Part shown: positions 5,882 through 60,436 of the stretch, piece by piece | How the letters are laid out: each line of letters starts with the position of its first letter | Position numbering within the stretch: the first letter of the stretch is position 1 | Assembly: GCA_947623455.1 (NCBI GenBank) | Contig: OX392536.1 | Coordinates: 7,001,282-7,065,281 of the forward strand | Length of the DNA stretch: 64,000 nt | Direction: 5' to 3' | Source of the DNA: Mimachlamys varia | Lineage: Eukaryota; Mollusca; Bivalvia; Pectinida; Pectinidae | The notes under the pieces: generated by a model | Told to the model about the DNA's origin: nothing | The model's input: the letters and a program-made list of their open reading frames with translations, nothing else | Database searches by the model: none | Position numbers and translations under genes: made by a program

Positions 5882-8638
5882 AGGGTTTTAGCCACGATTT
5901 TTCATAATTTCATATTTTGATCTCATTTGATGCAACAACACGTGTAGTGACCGATACCCCGTCTCCTTCGGTGTTGGGAAAATAGGCAAGCTAGGTGACG
6001 CCCCATTTCTATGAGCCTAGTGAATATGCATATTTTGACCGGTATTCTAGGTCACGTGGTGTGTGACGTCATTGAGGCACAACGTATCCATTACCTGTAC
6101 ACGCCCATTACATATTTATGTATTATCTGTGAGTGTAAAGATTGACTTTTATCTAATTTTTTGGTGCAAATAATGACAGCAACTAATACATGTTATATGG
6201 TTAAAATTATCAATCGTCATTAATGATCTTGTCAGAAAAATAAAACTTATCTAATTCCGATTTTTACATAAACTGCATTCAATTAGAATCTAGTCCGTGA
6301 CGTCTCAGCAACTCCAAGCTTAGAGACAGTGATACAATTTACACAAACTGATTTTACAGCTATGTAAATTACCTGTAGCCTTACCTGTAGCCTTACCTGT
6401 CATACATATACACGCCAAAGGGCATTTGTTTGTACCTACCCGTGAGTTGTGGCAGGTGTACTAATTGCCCTGTAATTACTAAGAGGTGTGAATGTAATGG
6501 CCAGTGAATTCGAAGGGCATTCATGCTAATATAATTACCGATCTTCTAAATAGCAATATACACCGGCACAATTATTTTTATCCCTAGCCGTCCCCAGTGT
6601 TGTAAGAAAAACTATTTATTAAAAAGGATTAAAGGAGTTTTCAACAGAATCTAACAATATTTTTTATCAGTATTTAACATTAGGCTAGTAATCTTGGCAA
6701 AACATGCCACTGTTAATTAGGTTAAACTTTATTTGTATTACATATAAACGATTTTCTGAAATATCTAAATTTTTAAAGTTTTATTGTTTTTGTAAAATTG
6801 GTGATGCTGATACTATGACGGGTTTTTTAAAAAAAGTTATTGCATATTTTAAAATATCAACATAAACATTTGGTTATTGGATTTATCAGGAACGTATATG
6901 TGTCCTTGGATTTATGATGTATATTCAGGGCGGATCCAAGAATTTAGATGCGTTAATGTGACACACTTCTACTTTCAGATATAAACCAAAATTAATCCAG
7001 ATTTTGTTGATGAAAACTGTATGAAAAACAAGATTTATCTCGTCTAATGATTTAAGTCCTAGTTGAAATGAATATCACCAACTAGAGTGAGCCTAACAAA
7101 ATTCATTTATTTATCGCGTTTGAATTTCACGTATATCTAGAATCCTGTGCTTGTTCTAGTACAATTCAAAGAATATGGCACAATATTTTTCTGCGCTAGG
7201 ATTGAGAGTAATTATTTCAAACTGCAACCACTTCAACCCAAAACTGGGTGACTAAGAGCTGTAAAAATGTATGCAGTAAACGTAGGAGAACAATTTTTCA
7301 AAACATGTTTCAATAATCATAAGCGTATGTTATTTGTTTTAATCATGACCAGACTTTATCCTTGGAAAATATTTATAATTATTTCACACAAATAGACTGG
7401 TGTGTTACTGAATTAAGGGAAATAAAAAGTCTGGAAGAGCTTTTTATTTTTGCAAACCGATTTCAGTCCAAATTTTAAACAATATTTCAATTTAACACAA
7501 ATAATTCAGACTGTCATGTTTTCACATCTATTTGTGACAGTTTCTGCTTTATTGAAATCAGACAGAAATTGTTTGTTTACGTGCACATTTCAAAAATTGA
7601 AGGATTTTTTTTTGCATTCCATATGTACGTGCTGTACTACTACCATATACTTGTACAGTATATGTTATAGAGTGGTGGGGGTTTGCCGGACACTAAAATA
7701 TAAACTCGTCGTGGCTTTATTTACTCCATCTCCACAAACATTCCGTACTGTTGACGTCATAAAAGATAATACTTCTGAAGTATTAACGAAAACATTTGAT
7801 TGTACAGCGTAAACAGTTTGTATTAGCAAATCACAAGATTTTGAAATCACCAAGATCTAACACGGAGTATATTACCGGACACTATATATAATATGCAATC
7901 AAGGAAGATTTTACATGTTGCGGGTATAACTTGGAACACATATTCATGATTCAGCACTGTATGCTGTTTTAATTTAGTTCCAGCTTAATAAAGTCTATAC
8001 AATCAAACGTTTGAAAAAAACCTGCTTTTTAAAGAAAGTGGCTCCGTCCGTAATATACCTCACCACCACTCTATGCGTGTATGTTGCTACTGTTTTCATA
8101 TACTATCTATAAAACCAATTTGTAACGTGTCTGTAAAAATCATATAGTTCTTTCACAGGCTTTACTAATTCCGTGGTCCTTTGCAGAAGCATTATTGTTA
8201 GAATGTGGTGGATGTGTAATAATCACTCGCAACACGATGTTTTTAAATGGCATTTCCTATTTCCTTTCTTAAGTTTTACAATTACATATCTATATTTTTT
8301 TCAGGGTATTTTATTTGTTAATCAATAGAATTAAACAACAATCAAGATCGACTTACATGTCGAAATCAATAGGCGTTATTCTACTAAACTTTCTTCGTCA
8401 ATGTACCACTGATCAGTTTACCTGAGTCGATCAGTTGTGCTTCAATGACGTCACAGGTACCACGTGACCGGTCAGCTCATTAAAATTCTCGCCAGTCGGG
8501 AGCGGTCAACTTTGACTGTCAATATCTAGATCCCGGGACACAATCGAATGCGCGTTGATGGGCTAATCAGTATTTATTGAAATGTACTATAAGTTTCATA
8601 ACTTTTTACAAGATTTTCAAAATCGTGGCCAAAACCCT
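5882..8638. mobile_element. TTAA-flanked non-autonomous DNA transposon (piggyBac/Kolobok type)
   Basis: The left end reads AGGGTTTTAGCCACGATTTT. The right end is its inverted match, with one obvious G/A difference in the first 20 bases. TTAA lies directly outside both ends (5878-5881 and 8639-8642). Similarity between the arms continues inward in a patchy way, including 'gaccggt', 'cacgtggt' and 'gtgacgtcattga', over about 240 bp. No transposase was seen: the largest frame, 7450-7812 plus, is 120 codons and crosses a nested MITE. TTAA duplications are typical of piggyBac and Kolobok superfamilies; the AGGG terminus does not decide between them. It sits inside a minisatellite. Confidence 0.88.
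7670..8071. mobile_element. Nested TA-flanked MITE
   Basis: The ends GAGTGGTGG...CCGGAC and its inverted counterpart (gtccg...ccaccactc) are flanked by TA at 7668-7669 and 8072-8073. This is the pattern of a Tc1/mariner-type MITE of about 402 bp. The inverted match is imperfect beyond the first nine bases. It lies within the larger TTAA element and was therefore inserted later or carried along. No coding capacity is seen. Confidence 0.55.
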
Positions 8639-48628: not shown

Positions 48629-48636
48629 CAACAGAC
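48629..48636. other. Target-site duplication, left copy (CAACAGAC)
   Basis: This 8-bp word lies immediately outside the left terminal repeat and is repeated exactly at 60429-60436. An 8-bp duplication is the rule for P elements (and hAT elements). Confidence 0.95.
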
Positions 48637-49283
48637 CACAGGGGCTAGGCACGGACCTATGTCACTATGAAATGATTGTCAGATATTTTTTTTACCTTTC
48701 TCGAATATAGCCCCTCCCACTACTATATATCTGTGACAAGGGAAAGAACTAGCCTCAACGAGAAAATCGACCTATTTTCACTCTAAGCTTGTTTTCGTCA
48801 CTGAATGAAGTCCAATTTTTTACATGCATGCCTCATTTTAAAGGTGAAACTTTTATCTTTCAGCCGATACCAAATATATCCCGCTACACGCATGTAAAAG
48901 CTCACTAGGCTGTCTAGAATCCGAGGTTTTGCATGAAAATCGTTAGGTGGGCACTTCCATGTCCATGGCTTCATACCTCGTCTCTCTATTGGGCACAGCT
49001 TTATTTACGCGGCGATTAATGAAAACGGCTTTGTGGCTCTGTCACAAATGTTAAAGCACGTTATCCTACCTTGCAGTGGGGTGTTTATCGCTATTGTAAT
49101 CCATGTCATCCGAGGTTACAGTCACGGTTCGTCGAAGATGTGAACTTCAGCCGCCATTTTTCAAGTTTTATATAGTTATGCTACGCCTTCACTGATTGGT
49201 CAATCATATTTTCGGAACCTATCTAGACTGTCTCACTACTCATGTAGATCGACAACATGTAAATAAAACTCCGAACAGTTACA
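48637..49283 (+). repeat. Left terminal inverted repeat, 647 bp
   Basis: It matches the complement of 59782-60428 over its full length with no evident length change. Differences noticed include c/a in 'gaggttacagtc', and three single-base changes in the 'cgttaggtgggcac' to 'ctctctattgggcac' stretch. It ends at 'gaacagttaca'. Confidence 0.95.
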
Positions 49284-49639
49284 TTTGGCGGAATTTTCAA
49301 GCGTGATGTACATGTCTGTCGCCAAAAAAATTTTGCTGATCATAATTATCAAAATGCACATCGTAACATGGTAAGATTTTACTGATATATCTCTATAATT
49401 AATGTTAGAATCATTCCGTTTTTCATGAAAAAATGATTTCCCATTATCAATTATAACAATGCAAGACAAGAAAAATAACTTGAAAACTGTAGGCCTACTA
49501 ACACAACTGTTTCGTTTGGTTTTGAATAGGCCTGTAACCAAAATATGGGAAAACTGTAACAACCAAAATTTCAGAAAATTTGGATTATATTAAATTTCTT
49601 TTATTTATATTTTTGAATGGTGGTATGTTAGTAACTACA

Positions 49640-50485
49640 AAATATAAATGCCGATAATTGTTTTCATTTCTTTTATTTTTCATCACGTTATAACATGCAT
49701 ATACAATGTAACAAAAAATCATCATCTGATCATCATCATTTTCACTCCAACAATTACCAATCCGACAATATGCATCCATAGACATCCATCATCATCATGA
49801 ATACAAGCATCATGATAATCATCATTATCAATCTTGACAGTTATTGATCGTCATCATCTAAAGACAATCATCATCATCAATCATCATCATCATCATCACT
49901 CTAACAATATTCATCTAAAGACATAATCATTCATCATCATTATCATCCAAGCATCATCACAATAATCAGTCTTCATCAACATCTTCATATATATAAACCC
50001 ATTAATATTCATCATCAATATGCAATCATCATTAACAATCTTTATATTATCATCCATAGACATTCATCATCATCATTCAAGCATCATTACCATAATCATA
50101 ATCATTGTTTTCATCAACAAATATACATGTACATGTATATACATTAATATTCATCATCAACATGTTCCATAAGCAATCATCATCATCATCATCACTCCAA
50201 CAATATTCTTCATCCATAGACATTCATCATCATCATACAAGCATCGATCATTACCATAATCATAATCGTTGTTTTCATCAACATATACAATGTATATATA
50301 TACATTAACAGGGTTGCACTGGGTATTTTATAAATGGGGTCCTTTCCTAAATTAATTGGTCCTTCTGCATACTTTAAATGGGAATTCTGAAAATAAGTGG
50401 GGGTCCTTTTTAGCAATCATCATAATCATTAACAATCTTCATCACAATTATCTAAAGACAATCATCATCATCATCATCATCATCA
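49640..50485. repeat. CAT/ATC trinucleotide-rich microsatellite
   Basis: Runs of 'catcatcat' mixed with 'cattaatattcatcatca', 'tccatagacattcatc' and 'aagcatcat' form a degenerate microsatellite block inside the transposon. A ~110-bp non-repetitive patch lies at 50310-50415. No coding function is seen. Confidence 0.85.
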
Positions 50486-51229
50486 TTATTGACTCTTTAA
50501 TTTAAAAAAAGGGTTATATTGGTTTTCTTAGATTCTCAGAAAATCAAATCAATATTGGGAAAATCTTGTATCATTCTTTGAAAATAAAACAATGACAGAA
50601 ATATCAGCTTTAAATACTTAGATTTACTAACTTAGAACAGTACCTTAACTTCCAAATAATTTTAAATCCCTATTTCCCATGCGCATATCAAAGGGTATCA
50701 CAATGTACATTTGTACAATTACAAAAAGACTAGATTGATCACAAGAAGTTAATATTCTTGAGTTTTGGTCAGTTGAAATGTTATGAACCAGTTAAAAGAT
50801 GTAAATTAAATTAAATCTGACCATGACCTTTAAACTTCAGTCTGTGTTACTTTTTTATTGTGGCCATCGCTGCTTCATAATATCCTAATAAAATACATAG
50901 CTGATAAAAGACATACATTTTGAAATAGAAATTTAAAAGGTTTCAATCATTCTGGCCTTGACATTTGACCTTATGGCATTGACAGACAGATGGAAGAACA
51001 TGGTGATTACTACAGGGCACCCTAGTGACTACAAAGTGTTCTCGTGAAATAAATTGATGCAATCTTTTCCCTAATAGGTCATCACATTCATGTTTTTACA
51101 TGGATTAACACATTATGTGATAATCCTACCATGAATAAATATCACTGTTTAAGATCATGCCAAATGATTTAAAAATTATTTCTTAAGTCGTTATACAATC
51201 AGCCTCAACGTAAGTTGCAAAAACATACT
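50486..51229. other. Transposon spacer downstream of the PHD gene
   Basis: AT-rich spacer holding the 3' flank of the minus-strand PHD gene. A minus-strand polyadenylation word (AATAAA, seen as TTTATT near 50852) is present but not demonstrably used. Confidence 0.45.
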
Positions 51230-53435
51230 TCACTGACAGTCTTTGCAGAAGAATTTCACATTTTTTTTCTTAAATTTTTTCCATTTAAGCACATTTGCAA
51301 GTCCAGCACACTTTCGATGGAGCCAAAGGTCACATCCCTCACAACAGATACAGTCACCAAAACATTCACTCATGCAAATCTTGCATGAATCTTGTTCAGT
51401 TGCATTAAGTTCAGGTTCATCTCCATAAGTAACATGGCTGTCAGAAATGTTTTGTCCAGTTTCTTGACTTGGTCCAGGTTCATAACTAGGTCCAGATCCT
51501 GGTTCATGACTAGGTCGACGTTTACGAATAGGTCGAGGTTCACAACTAGGTTCAGATACCAGTTCACAACTAGGTTCAGATACCGGTTCACAACTAGGTT
51601 CAGATACTGGTTCAAGACTAGGTCGACGTTTACGAATAGGTCGAGGTTCACAACTAGGTTCAGATCCCGGTTCACGACTAGGTTGAGGTTTATGACTATG
51701 TCGACGTTTACGACTAGGTCCAGGTTCAGACTCATAACTAGGTCCTGGTTCAGGCTCATAACGAGCTCCAGGCTCAGGCTCATACATAGGTCCAGGTGCA
51801 GACTCATTACTAGGTCCAGGTTCCGGTTCACGACTGAAAGGACCAGTTTCTGTACTCCTTTCCTGGAGACCAGTGTCGACACCCTCAGATACTAAACATT
51901 CAGTGTTTGGTACTAAATTTTCTTCCACAATGACTGAATTCAGTTTCTTGATTAGGGTGGCCTTAGTGTCTTTTGACAAACATCCTGCATTGTAGGCTTT
52001 GGATAGAAGGGTCAGCTGCTTCTTGGTCATGCATGTCAGAAAGTTCCTGTCTTTTAATATCATTCCCTTCAGTAGACTATGTGACACTGATTTTCCTTCT
52101 GATCGGTCTTTCGAAACAAACTCGAAATCGATTTTCGGTGAGGTTTGCAATTTCTTTGTTCTCACTTGGATTTGCTTCCTGTGTGCCATCCGCTTTTCCA
52201 CAGAAAGAGCCTGTAAGAAGTCTTTCCTGAACTGGTTCAACATTACAAGGAGGAATTTGGTAATAAGTTCTTTGTAGACCTGTTGTGTGACTGCCACAAT
52301 GCTCACCATATCCTCAAGCAAACTGCTGACAGATAAATCTGATGACAGGTCCTGCATTTGTGTAGCCGATACCGTTTTGATGAATGCTTCATATAGCTCT
52401 TTAGAGTCGCACAAAACAGAAGAGCAGTACTCGTAAAGTTGATCACCATGTATATTGATGTTTTTTTCAACAAGCAGTTCTAGGCATTTTTCACACACTT
52501 TTATGAAAAACGTATACATGTCGTCACTTACATTCAACAGGCCCCTAGAAACATTCTGTTTTTGAGCAGTTTCCAAAAGAGTGTCTGGGTAGAGTGATGT
52601 TTCCTCCAAAGACTGTTCATTCTGTCTCATCTGATCCAGCACTTTGATGATACCACAAGCTTCTTGATACTTTGACTGGGCCTCAGTTGAAGTCTTGTAG
52701 CAGTTTGAATACTGCGCTTTGATGTACTTGTACCTTACTTTGGCCACACAGTATCCAGCGACATACCGGACTTTTCCTCTGCTGCTTGAAGTTATGTGTC
52801 TTTGGCTTGTTTCTCTCCCAAGAACTGTAAATAGCTTTTCTTTTTCTTGAAGAAGATATTTTCTCATTGCCACATGCAAATTGTAGCATATGTGACCCGA
52901 AACCTGCGAGGAAACAGGGCTTGGTAAGTCGATGAACAAAAGCATGGAGTTGCATCTCATTTCTGTAGATGTTTGGTGTTCATGACATTTTGTATAAAAT
53001 TCAGACAACTTGTTGGCCTTCACAGGTTTTGGTCCGGAATCGCTCAGGTCCAACACTTCCATAAGCTCCCTTAATGCACAAAATTCTTTGTTACAAAACA
53101 TGTTCACCTTTGATGTATACTCTTTCCTCAACAGAAGTTTAATTGCATCATTTGTTTCTGCCTGTACTGGAGTGAAAACTTGCTCAATTATCAAGCTGTT
53201 CAGGACTTCACTCGCACTAAATCCCTGTGGAAGTTCAGGGATATTATCACTTAAGTCATCTTCTGTATGACTGGCAATGATCTCATCAAACTCCTCATCA
53301 AAGTCATCTTCATCATCATCAATATGACATTCTTCCTGTGAAGTAGTATTGTCAGCTTCCGACCACAGACTGTTAAGTGCCTCAATGTCACCAGGTGTAA
53401 ATGTATATGCATCTGCTTCTGCTTGCTTAGGAAAC
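51230..53435 (-). CDS. PHD-finger protein of the P-type transposon (partial gene model, last exon)
   Basis: A minus-strand frame is open for 761 codons from 53515. The first ~27 codons look intronic, because a good acceptor (tttatag) lies at 53436-53442 and the exon then starts at 53435; an unidentified 5' exon is expected. The first in-frame ATG is at 53470. Residues below count from 53515. The protein has an acidic N-terminal patch (DDDEDDFDEEFDE, about 68-80). A block 'KVRYVAGYCVAKVRYKY' lies at about 245-262. A charged repeat of 'EPGPS/EPEP' and 'RKRRPS' units spans about 570-695. A C-terminal PHD-type zinc finger occupies 711-760, with CKIC, CxxC, 'DLWLHRKC' and CKDC in C4HC3 order, before the stop. 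PHD fingers usually read histone tails. The 'YVAGY' block resembles a short motif near the C-termini of P/THAP9 and hAT transposases. It may be an accessory DNA- or chromatin-binding subunit; that role is inference. Confidence 0.75.
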
Positions 53436-53857
53436 CTATAAAATATAATGAAATGAATGATAGTTAACATGATCCATCCAAACCAGATAAAATCGTACTC
53501 TCCCCTCACCCACAAAAAAATATATGTTTCTACTAACTAGTCAGAAGGTTAGGGAAGGCATGTAGATAATTTTATGTTTTAAATATGTTTACAAGATTTA
53601 TAAAGGAGTGATCTTAAAAAAGAAATACACAATATCCCAACATTTACTGCAAAAGTACAATTTTTTAATGGAATTCAATTAACAACTACACCTCAAAATC
53701 CAAAAGACTGAAAACATATATCTGTTTTTGTTATTATATTTTTAAAATCTTGTATCGGGGACTAAAATCTCATATACACAAAATTCATACATATTCATAA
53801 ATTTGCAGTGAAAATGTAAAGACTGTCAGGTCAGGAAAGTGAAAACTGCTTTTGAAG
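53436..53857. promoter_or_regulatory. Divergent intergenic region between PHD gene and transposase
   Basis: About 340-420 bp separate the two divergent genes, so start sites or first exons of both must lie here. It contains a 32-bp stretch (53651-53682) identical to transposase coding sequence at 54139-54170 and in the same reading frame, followed by a stop 9 codons later. No clear TATA box was identified. Confidence 0.5.
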
Positions 53858-56368
53858 ATGGAGGTGCATATTGTCTTTCTGTCAGTGTCTGTCTATCTGT
53901 CTATTCCTAAAGTGTTTGCATTAAATATTTCATATTTTGACAGGTTACTAACAAGAACTCAAGCTTCAAGTGGAGCAGAAATTGAGACTGATAGACTATA
54001 TCAACAGTTCCGGTTGGAATTATTTGATGATGATGATGCTGATGAAGATAAAGAAAATTGTGAAAGACATACATTTTCCAAATATGTGTTTTCTGTTTAT
54101 CCTGATGTAAAACCAAAGAGACGTTACGTGAATGAGAAAAAAGTACAATTTTTTAATGGAATTCAATTAAAACCGTTGGATCCAGACTTGAAAGTAACTA
54201 AAATATTACCAATAGATATCAACATACTGAAAGACATGTTACCAAGCACGTTCACTGTTGATGAAATGACAGACAATGAATTAGTGTGTCACATAAAAAC
54301 GCAACACAGTTCAAATGGACATGATGTTATAAAGAAAGTAACCTTTCTGAAAAATGGTCGTTGGAAAGTGGAAATAGCCAATAAATGTATTGACATTGAA
54401 TCTTTGAGGATAACCAACACCTTCAAATGTGATAAAGAGAATGTAAATGTTATATGCAAAACTGTCGAGATGATCAAGGTGTGTCAAGCCATATCTGTAA
54501 AGCAATCTGTTGTGTGTAGTAGGTACCATACACTTGAGAAATGGACCGATAAACAAAATGTTACAACAAGAAAACTTAGATCATTAATGTGCTCTCGAGT
54601 TTTGCAATTCCTGTCATCATCTGATGCATGTAGAACCTGTAACAAGATGACTTTTGGTCATACTAACAGAAGTGACAAAAAGATTGAATCCACAACTGAC
54701 CATCCACAAGGTACAAATGATCATATGGTGTCAAAGGAAGAATTCAAAAAGTTGATACCCAGTGCTTCAAATGAGATGTTAGAGCTCCTTCTCAATCAAG
54801 CAAACAATGCTGAAAAACATCCAAGGGGAAGGAGATGGAGCAAGATTGTTATTTCTGTTTGTTTACAACTGTACAACCGTTCACCCCAGGGGTATTCATC
54901 ATTACGTTCCAGTAACCTTCTGATACTTCCCTCTCCCTCTCTACTTGTCCTGTACAAAAATTCTGTCCATCAAATGGTAGGCTTTCAAAAAGATATATTT
55001 CAATGGATGTTTAAGGAAGCCATGAGACTTCAAATTCCCCAAGAAGGGTGGGTAGGTGGAGTTATTATAGATGAGATGGCCATACAGGAGGACTTACAAA
55101 TTCTTAAAAATGGTGATGCAGTAGAGTTAGTTGGTTTTGCTGACCTTGGGGGTGAAGGAAATATGTGCAAGACACTTACAACTGGAAAGAATGAAAAACA
55201 ACTTGGTAACCATGTACTGCAGTTTGTATTCTTAGGACTGACCGGCTTTCGATTCCCATTTGCCCATTTTCTTTCCAATCAAGTACAGGCAACAGAATTG
55301 CACACATTATTTTGGGAGTCTGTAGACAATCTGCAGATGTATGGTTTCCATGTTGCTTTTACATGTATGGATGGCGCTCAAAGTAACCGATCTTTCTTAC
55401 ACATAAACTTGGGACAAGGCAGTACTTCCAGCACCAGTATGAATGTTAAAAACCCATGTGACTTGAATGAAAGTGTTATTTTCATGATGGATTATTCTCA
55501 CTGCATCAAAAAAGTTAGAAATAACATACTAAAAAGTGGATTGCAAAAGGGTTGCACACGAAACTTGACCCTACCTAACAATGAAATTATTCAATGGCAA
55601 ATGTGGATTGATTGTTACCACTGGGATAGACAGAATGCTCTCCAAATTCATAGACATTTGACAAATGAACACATTTTCCCATCACAACAGACAAAAATGA
55701 GGAATCATTTAGCAGAAGAGGTGCTAAATGAGGATATGTTACACTTGTTTCAGATGTATCAAAGTGCTCTAGGGGCTAAAGGTGCTGTTCTTAATGGAGC
55801 AATTCAGCTTATACAAAAAACATCTCGAATGATAACCATATTCCGGGACACAAGACCTGTTACTGGTGTAAATGACATAAGGTTACAACAGTTACAAGAA
55901 GTACTAAGTTGGTTTGTTGAATGGAAAAAGGAAGTGAAAGAGAATGTGTCATTATCTAACAAAGAAAAGGAACAAAGTCTTATGTCATACCAGTGCTTAG
56001 AAGACATTTCTTCATGTATTATTGGATTTGTTGAGTTGTGTGCTAAACTCCTTCATAACGTCAAAGACAAACATGTTTTTATTACTCCTGCACTAATCAA
56101 CTCTGACGTTATAGAAAATGAGTTCAATCAGCAACGATCCACATACAATGGTGCAAATTCTAACCCTAATGCTGTCCAGTACAGGAAATCTCTCAATAGC
56201 ATTATCCTTGGACAGTCTGTAATATCTAAAAAAGCAAATGCTGCAAAGTGTAATCCAGCAGCTTGTGCACAGCCATATATATTTGAAAACCAGTGTCCCC
56301 TGAGAAAGAAAAAAAAGAAAAGCCTAAGTGATGAATCACAGCCCAACATAAAACTAATTCGCTATTAG
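53858..56368 (+). CDS. P-element/THAP9-type transposase
   Basis: A single open frame of 836 codons runs from the first ATG. An acceptor-like 'attttgacag' at 53932-53941 means a spliced 5' end is possible. The catalytic region has the P/THAP9 order. 'IIDEMAI' holds D405, followed by 'ELVGFADLGG' and 'FVFLGLTGFRFPFAHFLSN'. 'FTCMDGAQSN' holds D505, and 'MDYSHCIKKVRNNIL' holds D545 and H548. Near the C-terminus 'VIENEFNQQR' (E753/E755) and 'NSNPNAVQYRKSL' correspond to the family's E-containing block and NPTxxQFR motif. Such enzymes cut and paste DNA in the nucleus with an RNase-H fold and a guanine-nucleotide-binding insertion. No THAP zinc finger (C2CH) is visible at the N-terminus, only an acidic patch (DDDDADEDKE) and a CRTC pair near residue 257. 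DNA recognition may therefore lie elsewhere or on an unseen exon. The frame has no stops or shifts. Confidence 0.9.
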   Translation: MEVHIVFLSVSVYLSIPKVFALNISYFDRLLTRTQASSGAEIETDRLYQQFRLELFDDDDADEDKENCERHTFSKYVFSVYPDVKPKRRYVNEKKVQFFNGIQLKPLDPDLKVTKILPIDINILKDMLPSTFTVDEMTDNELVCHIKTQHSSNGHDVIKKVTFLKNGRWKVEIANKCIDIESLRITNTFKCDKENVNVICKTVEMIKVCQAISVKQSVVCSRYHTLEKWTDKQNVTTRKLRSLMCSRVLQFLSSSDACRTCNKMTFGHTNRSDKKIESTTDHPQGTNDHMVSKEEFKKLIPSASNEMLELLLNQANNAEKHPRGRRWSKIVISVCLQLYNRSPQGYSSLRSSNLLILPSPSLLVLYKNSVHQMVGFQKDIFQWMFKEAMRLQIPQEGWVGGVIIDEMAIQEDLQILKNGDAVELVGFADLGGEGNMCKTLTTGKNEKQLGNHVLQFVFLGLTGFRFPFAHFLSNQVQATELHTLFWESVDNLQMYGFHVAFTCMDGAQSNRSFLHINLGQGSTSSTSMNVKNPCDLNESVIFMMDYSHCIKKVRNNILKSGLQKGCTRNLTLPNNEIIQWQMWIDCYHWDRQNALQIHRHLTNEHIFPSQQTKMRNHLAEEVLNEDMLHLFQMYQSALGAKGAVLNGAIQLIQKTSRMITIFRDTRPVTGVNDIRLQQLQEVLSWFVEWKKEVKENVSLSNKEKEQSLMSYQCLEDISSCIIGFVELCAKLLHNVKDKHVFITPALINSDVIENEFNQQRSTYNGANSNPNAVQYRKSLNSIILGQSVISKKANAAKCNPAACAQPYIFENQCPLRKKKKKSLSDESQPNIKLIRY

Positions 56369-56966
56369 ACTGTTTCATGACCAGGGTTTGAATAAGATAA
56401 AGACAGCTTCTTTAAGTAATGTAGAGAGTATGACAATGCTCAATACATGTGTATGCCTGAGTTAAAATACAAGAATTATTGTAAATTGAAATTTAACTTG
56501 ATTAGTTTTGAACCAGATAATTTCTGAAAGTGTACAACACTAGTGTTTGATTAGTCTAATTTTCTAAGGTTATGATAAATCCCATTTATATTCTTTGTTT
56601 AAATTATACACAATACTGCTTACATGTGTAATATTAACACTGCACAGTTCTGCAAAAGCAATATACTGTCTAGAAGTGTGATCAAAGACAATGAGAACTC
56701 TATGTGGGTGTTTCCATGTTGAAATTTATTAATGTGTCACTGACCTTTGCCCTTGTTACCCCCAGGTATATTGCCCTTGTCCTATGAGTGAGATTGTATG
56801 CTACATATACCACATGAAGTTAATTTCGTGATACTTGGTGTTATGTCCCTTTAATTAAATAGAGAAGAGCAAAATTATATCCATTAATAAGTAATACCCC
56901 TCTCCAACATAATTCAACCATAGTAAGAGGGTTTTGGTGGTGTTTTTTAATTATTGACATGTTTAC
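56369..56966. other. Convergent spacer between transposase and helicase
   Basis: The transposase (plus) and helicase (minus) converge here. A last short helicase exon is expected because exon 3 ends at a donor (GTAAAC) with two bases of a codon left over. One candidate begins after 'ctcactcatag' (minus strand, about 56782), but this is not certain. Confidence 0.45.
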
Positions 56967-59765
56967 CTTTCTCTGAGACAACAAAGTAAGCCTGGTTCTT
57001 CCTGCTTTGGTTCACTTTTGATGAACTCATCAATAATGCATGGCTGGGGAGGACAGGAATTTCTGGAGAAGTTTATCACTCGGAGTCCATCTTTAGATGT
57101 CACCCTTCCAATGCCTACTCCCAGCTGGCCAGGCAGAAATATTTGTCGACAATCAATCTCCACCCTGAAAAAAAAAATACAATGTATGTACAATGTATAC
57201 TGTAATGAACAAAGATCTTCCAATAATCAAAATCTTGCAGTTGCAATATACAAGGAATTGAACTTAATATAACTCCTGTTAATATCATATTCCTCTTAAT
57301 ATCATGTTTCTCCAAACACAATATTCCTTCAATTTCATCTATGTAATTTTATTTGGTTAATATCATGTATTTTGAGGTGAATTCCTCTTAATATTATGCT
57401 TTAAACAGAACATGATGTCATTTCCATTGATTTCAGATACAACTTGCACAGAAAATTAATAAAAATTTCATAGAAAATAAAAAACACCCATTTTTTATGA
57501 AATAATATTATATAAAAATTGAAAAATCCTATAATATATATTGAAAAGTTTACATTTAGTTATGGAAAATGGAAATTCACTAGTTTAAGTGAAGAAAATC
57601 ATGTTTAGATCTCTTTATGTCACATTCCTGTTAATATCATGTTTTTGTCTGACACATGCAAACATGATACAAAGAGGAGTGCACTGTACTTGTACTAATG
57701 TCCCCAAGATCTTGCTAATCTGCATATAAAATAAACTGTGAAACTGTTATCATAATATTGTTGCCAGAAAATTGCTTTGGGAAGAATAAACAGCATGTAG
57801 AAAAATATGCTAGAGATCCTTGAATAGTGTTGAATAAGACCTGGTATATACATGTACATGTATACTGTATGCATAAAATTTATGAACTGTTCACTAAGTT
57901 TTATATAAAAATAACTGTCATCAAACCTGGGTAAAGTCATCCCTTGGGCTTTGTGAATTGTCAAGGCAAATGCTGGCTTTAATGGAACCTGTGTCCTCTC
58001 TGCAATGTTCCGCTTAAGGTCCGGCGAATACTCTGCATACATACAAAGCAATGGAAGTACTCATTTCTTTTATTTTTTTTCATAGCATTTTTTTCAATTC
58101 AATCTACTTCTGTCAGATTACAACATAAATGGAATATACAACTGTACATACATGTAGACATGTACAGTATAACATCATAATGATTATTGACCTTAATAAT
58201 TTATACAAATAAAAATTTCAGTTATTAGGTAAAACTTTTAAATGTACAACTGTACATTTTTATAAATGTGTATTGCATGATTATAAATAACAATTATTTT
58301 CATCATATTAATTATTTACTTCATGAAAGCATCCATAATATTTTTTTTTATATTTCATGTGCATGCATCATGTCATATACAAAATAGAAGTGTTCAAATG
58401 TAAGTAGTTACATGTATATATGACCTAGTGCAATTGTGATAGCTAAAAAGTTTCCTTTAATTATAATTACAATACTGTTATGTCATTGACTTCAACACAA
58501 GTATGTCTGACTCATCATGCTCATTGTATATGAAGTTGCATCCTGCTTCATTTCCTGTCAAATGAATATGTGATAAGAAGTGTCTTAAATTTCTTTTAAT
58601 TTCATTCATACAAGATTTTAATAAACTTCTCTCTTTAGTGTTCATTTTGTGAGTGTTTTTATTAAAACCTTTGACACTGGTTTCATAAAATGTCATTTAA
58701 GACTCATTATATCTTAAGTTTAGTTTACAGACCTTTCAACAATGCAATTTCATCTTAAATTATTTACAAATGTAACTTACCAGAAAATGCTACCTTCTCT
58801 ATTGTTGTTGTAATGTCCACTGATGGAAACCTAACAACTGGTCCTGATGGATCACACTCCAAAACCACTCCAATCAAACCATTCACTAACTTGTCTGACA
58901 AGTTTCGTAGAAGTATTACTGGGCAGTTTCTTTTTAACCACAGAGTTGATGGAGCAAGAATTCTGGAGAGATGTTTCTGGTCCCCCTTTTCATTACACTT
59001 GTATTGGAACATTTCTCCTGGCCAGTCCATTAGACATTTCCTGTTGTGATTGTCCACCAAAAAGTTGGTTGAAAAAAGCTTAACGCCACATTCATTATCT
59101 TCTTGTTGCAGTGGTCGACTGAGGCTTTTGACATATTGTACTGTATCTTCTGATATGTTGCCCCTTGAAACATCATTTATAACGTCAACCAGTTCTGAAT
59201 CTGCCTGTCTTTGTACATTGTTTAATATAATTTTGTGAAACACTTGTGAAAATAGAGCACTTTGAAAACAAAATTTGCCATCATCACCATACATTGAGTT
59301 TTTGACAGGAGGCAACTGATAAAAATCACCTGTAAATATCAATTGTATGCCCCCGAAGATTAATTTGTTGTTTTTCAAAGAACAGATTTCTTCTAATTGT
59401 TCGAATATTTTTCGGCTCAGCATAGAAACCTCGTCCACTATAAGTACGTCGGTTGATAAGATTGTCTCGTACACATGTTTAAATTTTACATTGTGCCTGA
59501 TCAACTCCGCGATTTCAAGGGTATCATACCGTCCATCCTGTATGCCTGACCATCTGTGAAGGGTTGATGCCTTGCACCTAGCTGGATAGTGAGTACACGC
59601 GAGACCTGTCGTACATGTCACAGACACTTTCTTACCCTGTAAAGATAGCTCGTCGAATAGCTTGGTCACAAGAAAAGATTTCCCAGTACCTGCTTGCCCA
59701 CCAATAAAACAATTATGTCCTTTTTTTGCCAAACTAAGAGCATCTTGCTGCTCCTTCGTCAACAT
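56967..59765 (-). CDS. PIF1-type DNA helicase, three exons (59765-58781, 58032-57927, 57164-56967)
   Basis: SF1B PIF1-family helicases unwind DNA 5'-3' using ATP. Exon 1 (ATG at 59765) encodes Walker A 'GGQAGTGKSF' (K29), 'TLHRWSGI' (68-75), Walker B 'VLIVDEVSML' (D111/E112), motif III 'FTGDFYQLPPV' (144-154) and an 'RNLSDKLVNGLIGVV' block. It ends at a consensus donor GTAAGT. Exon 2 starts after 'tatgcag', supplies 'QVPLKPAFALTIHKAQGMTL' and ends at GTTTGA. Exon 3 starts after 'ttttttcag' and supplies 'GQLGVGIGRVTSKDGLRV', the family's final conserved block. Exon lengths 985, 106 and 198 keep one frame across both joins (phases 1 and 2), giving about 429 residues before a probable short last exon. 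The N-terminus is minimal, with no extra domain. The start lies only 17 bp inside the right terminal repeat, so its promoter is probably in that repeat. Confidence 0.9.
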
Positions 59766-59781
59766 GTTTAGCTGCTTGCAT

Positions 59782-60428
59782 TGTAACTGTTCGGAGTTTT
59801 ATTTACATGTTGTCGATCTACATGAGTAGTGAGACAGTCTAGATAGGTTCCGAAAATATGATTGACCAATCAGTGAAGGCGTAGCATAACTATATAAAAC
59901 TTGAAAAATGGCGGCTGAAGTTCACATCTTCGACGAACCGTGACTTTAACCTCGGATGACATGGATTACAATAGCGATAAACACCCCACTGCAAGGTAGG
60001 ATAACGTGCTTTAACATTTGTGACAGAGCCACAAAGCCGTTTTCATTAATCGCCGCGTAAATAAAGCTGTGCCCAATAGCGAGACGAGGTATGAAGCCAT
60101 GGACACGGAAGTGCCCACCTAATGATTTTCATGCAAAACCTCGGATTCTAGACAGCCTAGTGAGCTTTTACATGCGTGTAGCGGGATATATTTGGTATCG
60201 GCTGAAAGATAAAAGTTTCACCTTTAAAATGAGGCATGCATGTAAAAAATTGGACTTCATTCAGTGACGAAAACAAGCTTAGAGTGAAAATAGGTCGATT
60301 TTCTCGTTGAGGCTAGTTCTTTCCCTTGTCACAGATATATAGTAGTGGGAGGGGCTATATTCGAGAAAGGTAAAAAAAATATCTGACAATCATTTCATAG
60401 TGACATAGGTCCGTGCCTAGCCCCTGTG
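59782..60428 (-). repeat. Right terminal inverted repeat, 647 bp
   Basis: Inverted copy of 48637-49283, ending ...GTCCGTGCCTAGCCCCTGTG. It contains an outward-facing TATA-like 'tatataaaac' at 59891. Eight bases further is 'aaaatggcggc', the YY1-type initiator word, whose ATG opens only 11 codons. Confidence 0.95.
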
Positions 60429-60436
60429 CAACAGAC
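60429..60436. other. Target-site duplication, right copy (CAACAGAC)
   Basis: Exact repeat of 48629-48636, directly after the terminal CCCCTGTG. Confidence 0.95.

Follow-up and report, generated by a model that had tools for sequence, protein, structure and literature searches.

What kind of element holds a P-type transposase, a PIF1 helicase and a PHD finger between one pair of inverted termini, and what would the helicase do there? The question arises from a 64,000-nucleotide stretch of the bivalve Mimachlamys varia (contig OX392536.1, positions 7,001,282 to 7,065,281; hereafter the window), in which a single DNA transposon with terminal inverted repeats (TIRs) occupies positions 48637-60428 (11,792 bp, Table 1). 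The TIR arms are 99% complementary and the 8-bp target-site duplication is exact, just as an earlier note on this DNA had described. We are highly confident of the identity and architecture of the element, a P-superfamily transposon with two genes, a transposase and, on the opposite strand, PIF1-PHD.

The window contains a 'PHD' open frame (51230-53536, minus strand) and a PIF1 open frame (58764-59798, minus strand), which the earlier note had counted as separate genes, three in all with the transposase. Mapping of homologous proteins onto the window gave a four-exon minus-strand model in which all splice sites are GT-AG and a single frame of 1164 amino acids (aa) runs through PIF1, a helical domain and PHD; alternative in-frame splices exist, and the chosen one fits the homologues best. 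Seven of 18 relatives of the 'PHD' frame also carry PIF1 domains or a PIF1-like name, including entries from Argopecten, Pecten, Mizuhopecten, Saccostrea, Mya and Mercenaria, and the remaining 11, several of them short contig pieces, are without PIF1. Relatives of full length (1084-1156 aa) were found in Mytilus edulis and other sources. In the C4 copy of a second family of the same genome (family 2, Table 1), PIF1-PHD is a single uninterrupted 1102-aa open reading frame (ORF), arranged tail to tail with the transposase. We conclude from the predicted frames that 'PIF1' and 'PHD' are one gene encoding one fused protein, which leaves the element with two genes. The interleaved layout of the window looks to be derived from the simpler tail-to-tail one, or the reverse. 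An ATCATC-rich low-complexity stretch (49744-50483) occupies part of the interval from the left TIR to the PHD exon.

The transposase frame (53843-56368, plus strand) encodes a catalytic domain of the P-type split RNase H kind, DDE residues included. Its insertion domain is covered by the fold alignment and retains the counterpart of D528 (predicted GTP-binding region); Pfam GBD matches 10 of 32 members, the window protein not among them. The description of this protein as 'THAP9-type' is not supported. A scan of the element in six frames showed no THAP signature (C-x2-4-C-x35-53-C-x2-H) uninterrupted by a stop, although an intron-split C2CH would escape it, and THAP was not found among the matches listed (25 of 30 families) for the 32 transposase members. 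Exon 1 of the transposase may be located inside the TIR, several candidates having been considered; the sequence of the one tabulated is identical in four aligned copies, and the equivalent candidate of family 2 is at 1341-1366 of locus L029. Viral contigs scanned with the transposase alignment gave 45 pattern stretches, none confirmed as a relative. An exact 32-nt repeat places part of the transposase coding sequence (54139-54170) also at 53651-53682, 488 nt upstream and outside the main exon.

A search of the genome (975 Mb in 71 contigs, labelled C1, C2 and so on) found six full-length copies of the window family, namely the window and those on C16, C13, C7, C6 and C19. The 8-bp duplications are perfect in all six, each differing from the others. 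Divergence among the window, C16, C13 and C7 copies is just 0.26-0.66%, so the family moved recently. Empty sites, which the earlier note had proposed to look for in relatives, could be recognised in this genome for two of the three copies tested: the flanks joined with one duplication equal the adjacent tandem-repeat unit at 48 of 48 positions for C7 and at 46 of 48 for C16, and those of C13 gave no match (8 of 48). Family 2 likewise has perfect, mutually different 8-bp duplications in all three copies, and its 493-nt TIRs start with CACAGGGGCT as in the window family. Across families carrying the pair, identity is ~40% for the transposase and 28-43% for pieces of PIF1-PHD. Taken with the P catalytic fold, these copies and families bear out the suggestion of a P-type element of distinct lineage, and the proposal that it carries helicase and PHD as fixed cargo is supported by the sequence comparisons.

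Table 1. Features of the window element and copies of its family and of family 2. Positions are those of the window or, for copies, of the contig named.
Feature	Position	Strand	Length	Duplication	Remark
Target-site duplication, left copy	48629..48636	.		CAACAGAC	exact match to right copy
Left TIR, starts CACAGGGGCT	48637..49283	+	647 nt		10-nt terminus identical in family 2
Candidate transposase exon 1 (ATG to GTAAGA donor), just inward of the left TIR	49306..49370	+			candidate, one of four
PIF1-PHD exon 4: helical domain (RYVAGYC), E/P/S-rich repeats, C-terminal C4HC3 PHD finger, stop	51230..53435	-
PIF1-PHD intron 3, harbouring the opposite-strand transposase ORF	53436..56966	-			predicted from in-frame GT-AG sites and fused homologues
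Transposase main exon: RFX-like winged helix, cysteine motif, DDE RNase H with insertion domain	53944..56368	+	807 codons + stop
PIF1-PHD exon 3 (helicase motif VI region)	56967..57164	-
PIF1-PHD exon 2 (helicase motif V, HKAQGMT)	57927..58032	-
PIF1-PHD exon 1 (Walker A, DE box, GDFYQLPP)	58781..59765	-
Right TIR	59782..60428	-	647 nt		inner edge 17 nt from PIF1-PHD start codon, spacing equal in family 2
Target-site duplication, right copy	60429..60436	.		CAACAGAC	exact match to left copy
Window family, C16 copy	37851289-37863076		11,788 bp	GTTCTACT	end-to-end alignment with window, 99.6%
Window family, C13 copy	42525718-42537517		11,800 bp	CGTATACC	end-to-end alignment with window, 99.1%
Window family, C7 copy	5823458-5834290		10,833 bp	TTTCTATG	aligns piecewise with window at 99.0-100%
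Window family, C6 copy	24397525-24409344		11,820 bp	ATACAGAC	both ends present
Window family, C19 copy	32186216-32197963		11,748 bp	GGAACAGG	both ends present
Family 2, C4 copy	53175298-53183246		7,949 bp	GGAAAAAC
Family 2, C6 copy	10555801-10563714		7,914 bp	CCCCGCAC
Family 2, C2 copy	63355571-63363520		7,950 bp	ATTGTGAC

We asked how regularly the two genes occur together. The genome gave at least 60 matches to the transposase, at least 31 to the PHD exon and at least 122 to PIF1 exon 1, and the transposase matches merged to at least 33 loci, the window included. Among the matches listed, to which all locus counts here refer, a PHD-exon homologue lies within 5 kb at 20 of 33 transposase loci, a PIF1 match within 10 kb at 22, and one or both at 26, the neighbours always being on the opposite strand. 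Conversely, a transposase is present no more than 5 kb away at 20 of 23 PHD-exon loci (the exceptions are C16:39345872, C18:1191463 and C19:25006891), and of the best 20 of the at least 122 PIF1 matches, 19 are at transposase loci. The 26 linked loci are not independent: six are of the window family and nine of the C4 family, further lineages are represented by C15:6339170, C5:14388920 and a C12 group at 43.9-44.9 Mb, and five more are without fetched sequence. When the distances of the one gene were compared with those of the other across nine loci, r was 0.99, a value reached in 2 of 5000 permutations; we attach little weight to it because a single family supplies seven of the nine loci and three groups in effect determine the result. 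The linkage reaches beyond this genome, because relatives of both genes in Mactra antiquata have consecutive tags (ACF0H5_023460 and ACF0H5_023461).

PIF1 genes are thus common in the genome, as would suit a rival reading in which a P element, a PIF1 gene from a Helitron and a gene with a PHD finger became nested by chance or were wrongly joined in assembly. The C16, C13 and C7 copies align with the window and the C6 and C19 copies reach both ends, so neither chance nor an assembly join accounts for the element. Six copies of like content with different duplications, a second family of like content and the location of the best PIF1 matches refute this explanation, whose probability we consider negligible. 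The pattern that the earlier note had named as refuting, copies with the transposase only and helicase and PHD genes unlinked elsewhere, was not encountered: none of the full-length copies has the transposase alone, and most of the PHD-exon loci listed adjoin a transposase (20 of 23).

Coding frames had been described as intact. They are so in the window and in C16, as well as in C13 provided that its transposase reading starts at the splice acceptor; they are not in C7, which is without most of PIF1 exon 1, nor in C6 and C19, which have stops in the PHD exon (C19 also in PIF1 exon 1). A reading of the C13 transposase as broken was dropped because its 7-nt deletion (53925-53931), within the predicted intron, precedes the splice acceptor. 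Short derivatives were also found (17 examined; the longer list had 1280 candidates, 40 of which were scored). Fourteen of the 17 have exact 12-nt termini at both ends, all with perfect 8-bp duplications; the other three, with one end lacking the exact terminus, were left out of duplication scoring. Copies of ~930 bp (L003-L007, L017, L019-L024, L028), in which two unequal TIR pieces (~530 and ~330 nt) stand face to face, are non-autonomous, foldback-like miniature inverted-repeat transposable elements of the window family with perfect 8-bp duplications.

PIF1-PHD, lost in some copies, might be a passenger captured long ago without a role in transposition, for example a counter-silencing or host-side gene. 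The distant P-type transposases on C1 and C9 (~26% identical), with no PIF1-PHD match within the 9.5 kb read, belong to elements that move or moved without a detectable PIF1-PHD, as such a passenger would allow. Helicase motifs are, however, intact in two strongly diverged families, and the linkage holds at 26 of the 33 loci listed; we consider a passenger quite improbable. Other relatives in this genome include a different P lineage at L043 (3407-3813, 8292-8596), a distant P-type element with a 971-aa ORF, in which the inverted ends (~300 nt) are broken and PIF1 matches are absent. At L041 (~930-1660, 6300-6470), a transposase and a degenerate PIF1 are flanked by inverted arms, themselves composed of short tandem units resembling AAGGAAACCTGTCTAT. 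On C12 (43.91-44.92 Mb, G000), five degenerate transposases ~60% identical to that of the window lie 0.2-0.3 Mb apart on one strand with PIF1 pieces adjoining four of them, which looks like an amplified segment.

The PIF1-PHD protein keeps Walker A, the DE box, GDFYQLPP, HKAQGMT, the motif VI region and the C4HC3 PHD pattern. The helical domain between PIF1 and PHD (AlphaFold mean pLDDT 76.5) had no fold-search match that reached E 0.001 (best 0.08), and a profile comparison showed no relation to the transposase (probability 0.1%), so its assignment as a transposase piece was rejected. The RYVAGYC motif of this domain (within 51230-53435, minus strand) is common to all PIF1-PHD proteins, and some of its relatives have a precomputed assignment to Pfam PF27108. 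A profile of the PHD relatives matches solved PHD fingers, TAF3 best (E = 1.3e-5), and the family 2 PHD is exactly at the Pfam cut-off (24.0 vs 24 bits). Nine of nine strings fitting the pattern have Trp two residues before the His, a position that we take to belong to the methyl-lysine cage. For a role of this finger as a histone-tail reader we see the chances as even.

What, then, would PIF1-PHD do? The main rival to our preferred answer has it as a true partner of the transposase, acting within the transposition complex or helping to choose targets, as a RAG2-like chromatin partner that also remodels ends. The PHD closes the protein in family 2 and several homologues, the Trp position is constant, and two opposite-strand genes between TIRs, an RNase H transposase with a PHD-bearing partner, resemble the RAG1-RAG2 and ProtoRAG layout. 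P and RAG transpososomes, however, are not known to need a helicase, and we hold this role to be unlikely, although it deserves more credence than a passenger.

Our preferred answer is gap copying. From the fold, catalytic residues, termini and duplications, we infer that the element moves by P-type cut and paste: the RFX-like N-terminal domain would bind the element ends, replacing THAP, and the transposase would excise and insert the element. The TIRs may carry the promoters, as suggested by the PIF1-PHD start lying 17 nt from the TIR inner edge in both families. PIF1-PHD would then power long-tract synthesis, with the sister or homologous chromosome as template, so that the excision gap is filled with a new copy of the 8-12-kb element, and the PHD finger would keep it on suitable chromatin. 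Gap copying is ranked first because cellular PIF1 aids long repair synthesis and an element of 8-12 kb needs long copying after excision; as the main role of PIF1 it is nevertheless a tentative proposal, to which we give slightly less than an even chance. Several observations weigh against the whole. The PIF1-PHD introns and transposase exon 1 are predicted, and the PIF1-PHD gene is broken in three of six full-length copies. The RFX-like match exceeds E 0.001 in both Foldseek rows (0.0085 and 0.029), and Pfam detects RFX in just two of 32 members (best E 0.0056). The window PHD scores 15.9 bits, under the Pfam cut-off of 24, and seven of the 33 transposase loci listed are without both PIF1 and PHD exon (C1:29430593, C9:3512705, C12:27469529, C12:44394675, C3:53357189, C4:23145047 and C5:21154410). 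With these in view, we regard the full statement, a two-gene P-superfamily transposon whose PIF1-PHD drives gap copying with the PHD holding it on chromatin, as moderately probable. A bolder form seems doubtful to us: a two-component mode in which the transposase excises and PIF1-PHD forces long copy repair from an intact copy, making movement net replicative, in an RFX-for-THAP lineage that is old and widespread in bivalves, perhaps beyond.

The element shares with the P superfamily (Drosophila P, Galileo, 1360, THAP9-like) the 8-bp duplications, the P-type RNase H fold, insertion domain included, and ends starting with CA; long TIRs are also on record for Galileo. It differs in the lack of a detected THAP, the RFX-like N-terminus, the second gene PIF1-PHD and the size of 8-12 kb. 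A canonical Drosophila P element is ~3 kb long, with 31-bp TIRs and one gene, and does not match the 11,792 bp, 647-nt TIRs and two genes found here. The TIR length and domain list of the canonical element are those in PMC7776569. Helitrons and Helentrons also have a PIF1-family helicase, and a Helitron is without TIRs and target-site duplication and encodes a Rep-helicase protein, but the element here has TIRs, 8-bp duplications and a DDE transposase, and six ORFs scanned from it gave no match to the Rep family. Kolobok, another cut-and-paste transposon, has lineages with accessory enzymes, including KolobokH with a RecQ helicase, which in the rhodophyte Kolobok-1_CCri is on the complementary strand; its transposase is of a different superfamily, the helicase is RecQ rather than PIF1, and the available text names no PHD fusion (PMC9587614). 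AcademH is likewise a helicase-encoding DNA transposon, but of the Academ superfamily and with 9-10-bp duplications (as cited in PMC10045372). In a pearl-oyster genome paper, PIF1-like helicase domains appear in the list of domains related to transposons, the elements unspecified (PMC9646362). A literature search by title and abstract, with Repbase and Dfam outside it, turned up no report of a P-type transposon with PIF1, PHD or RFX domains. Helicase cargo is thus already known in Kolobok and Academ, and PIF1-PHD in P-type elements is apparently undescribed.

P elements serve as the textbook case of a simple transposon, and the recovery of copies after cut-and-paste excision has so far been ascribed to host repair. 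In a lineage that brings its own PIF1, joined to a chromatin reader, the question of how copies are regained could be tested directly, and RFX in place of THAP would be a second DNA-binding solution on the same catalytic core. The lineage may also account for some of the PIF1 genes annotated as host helicases in bivalves.
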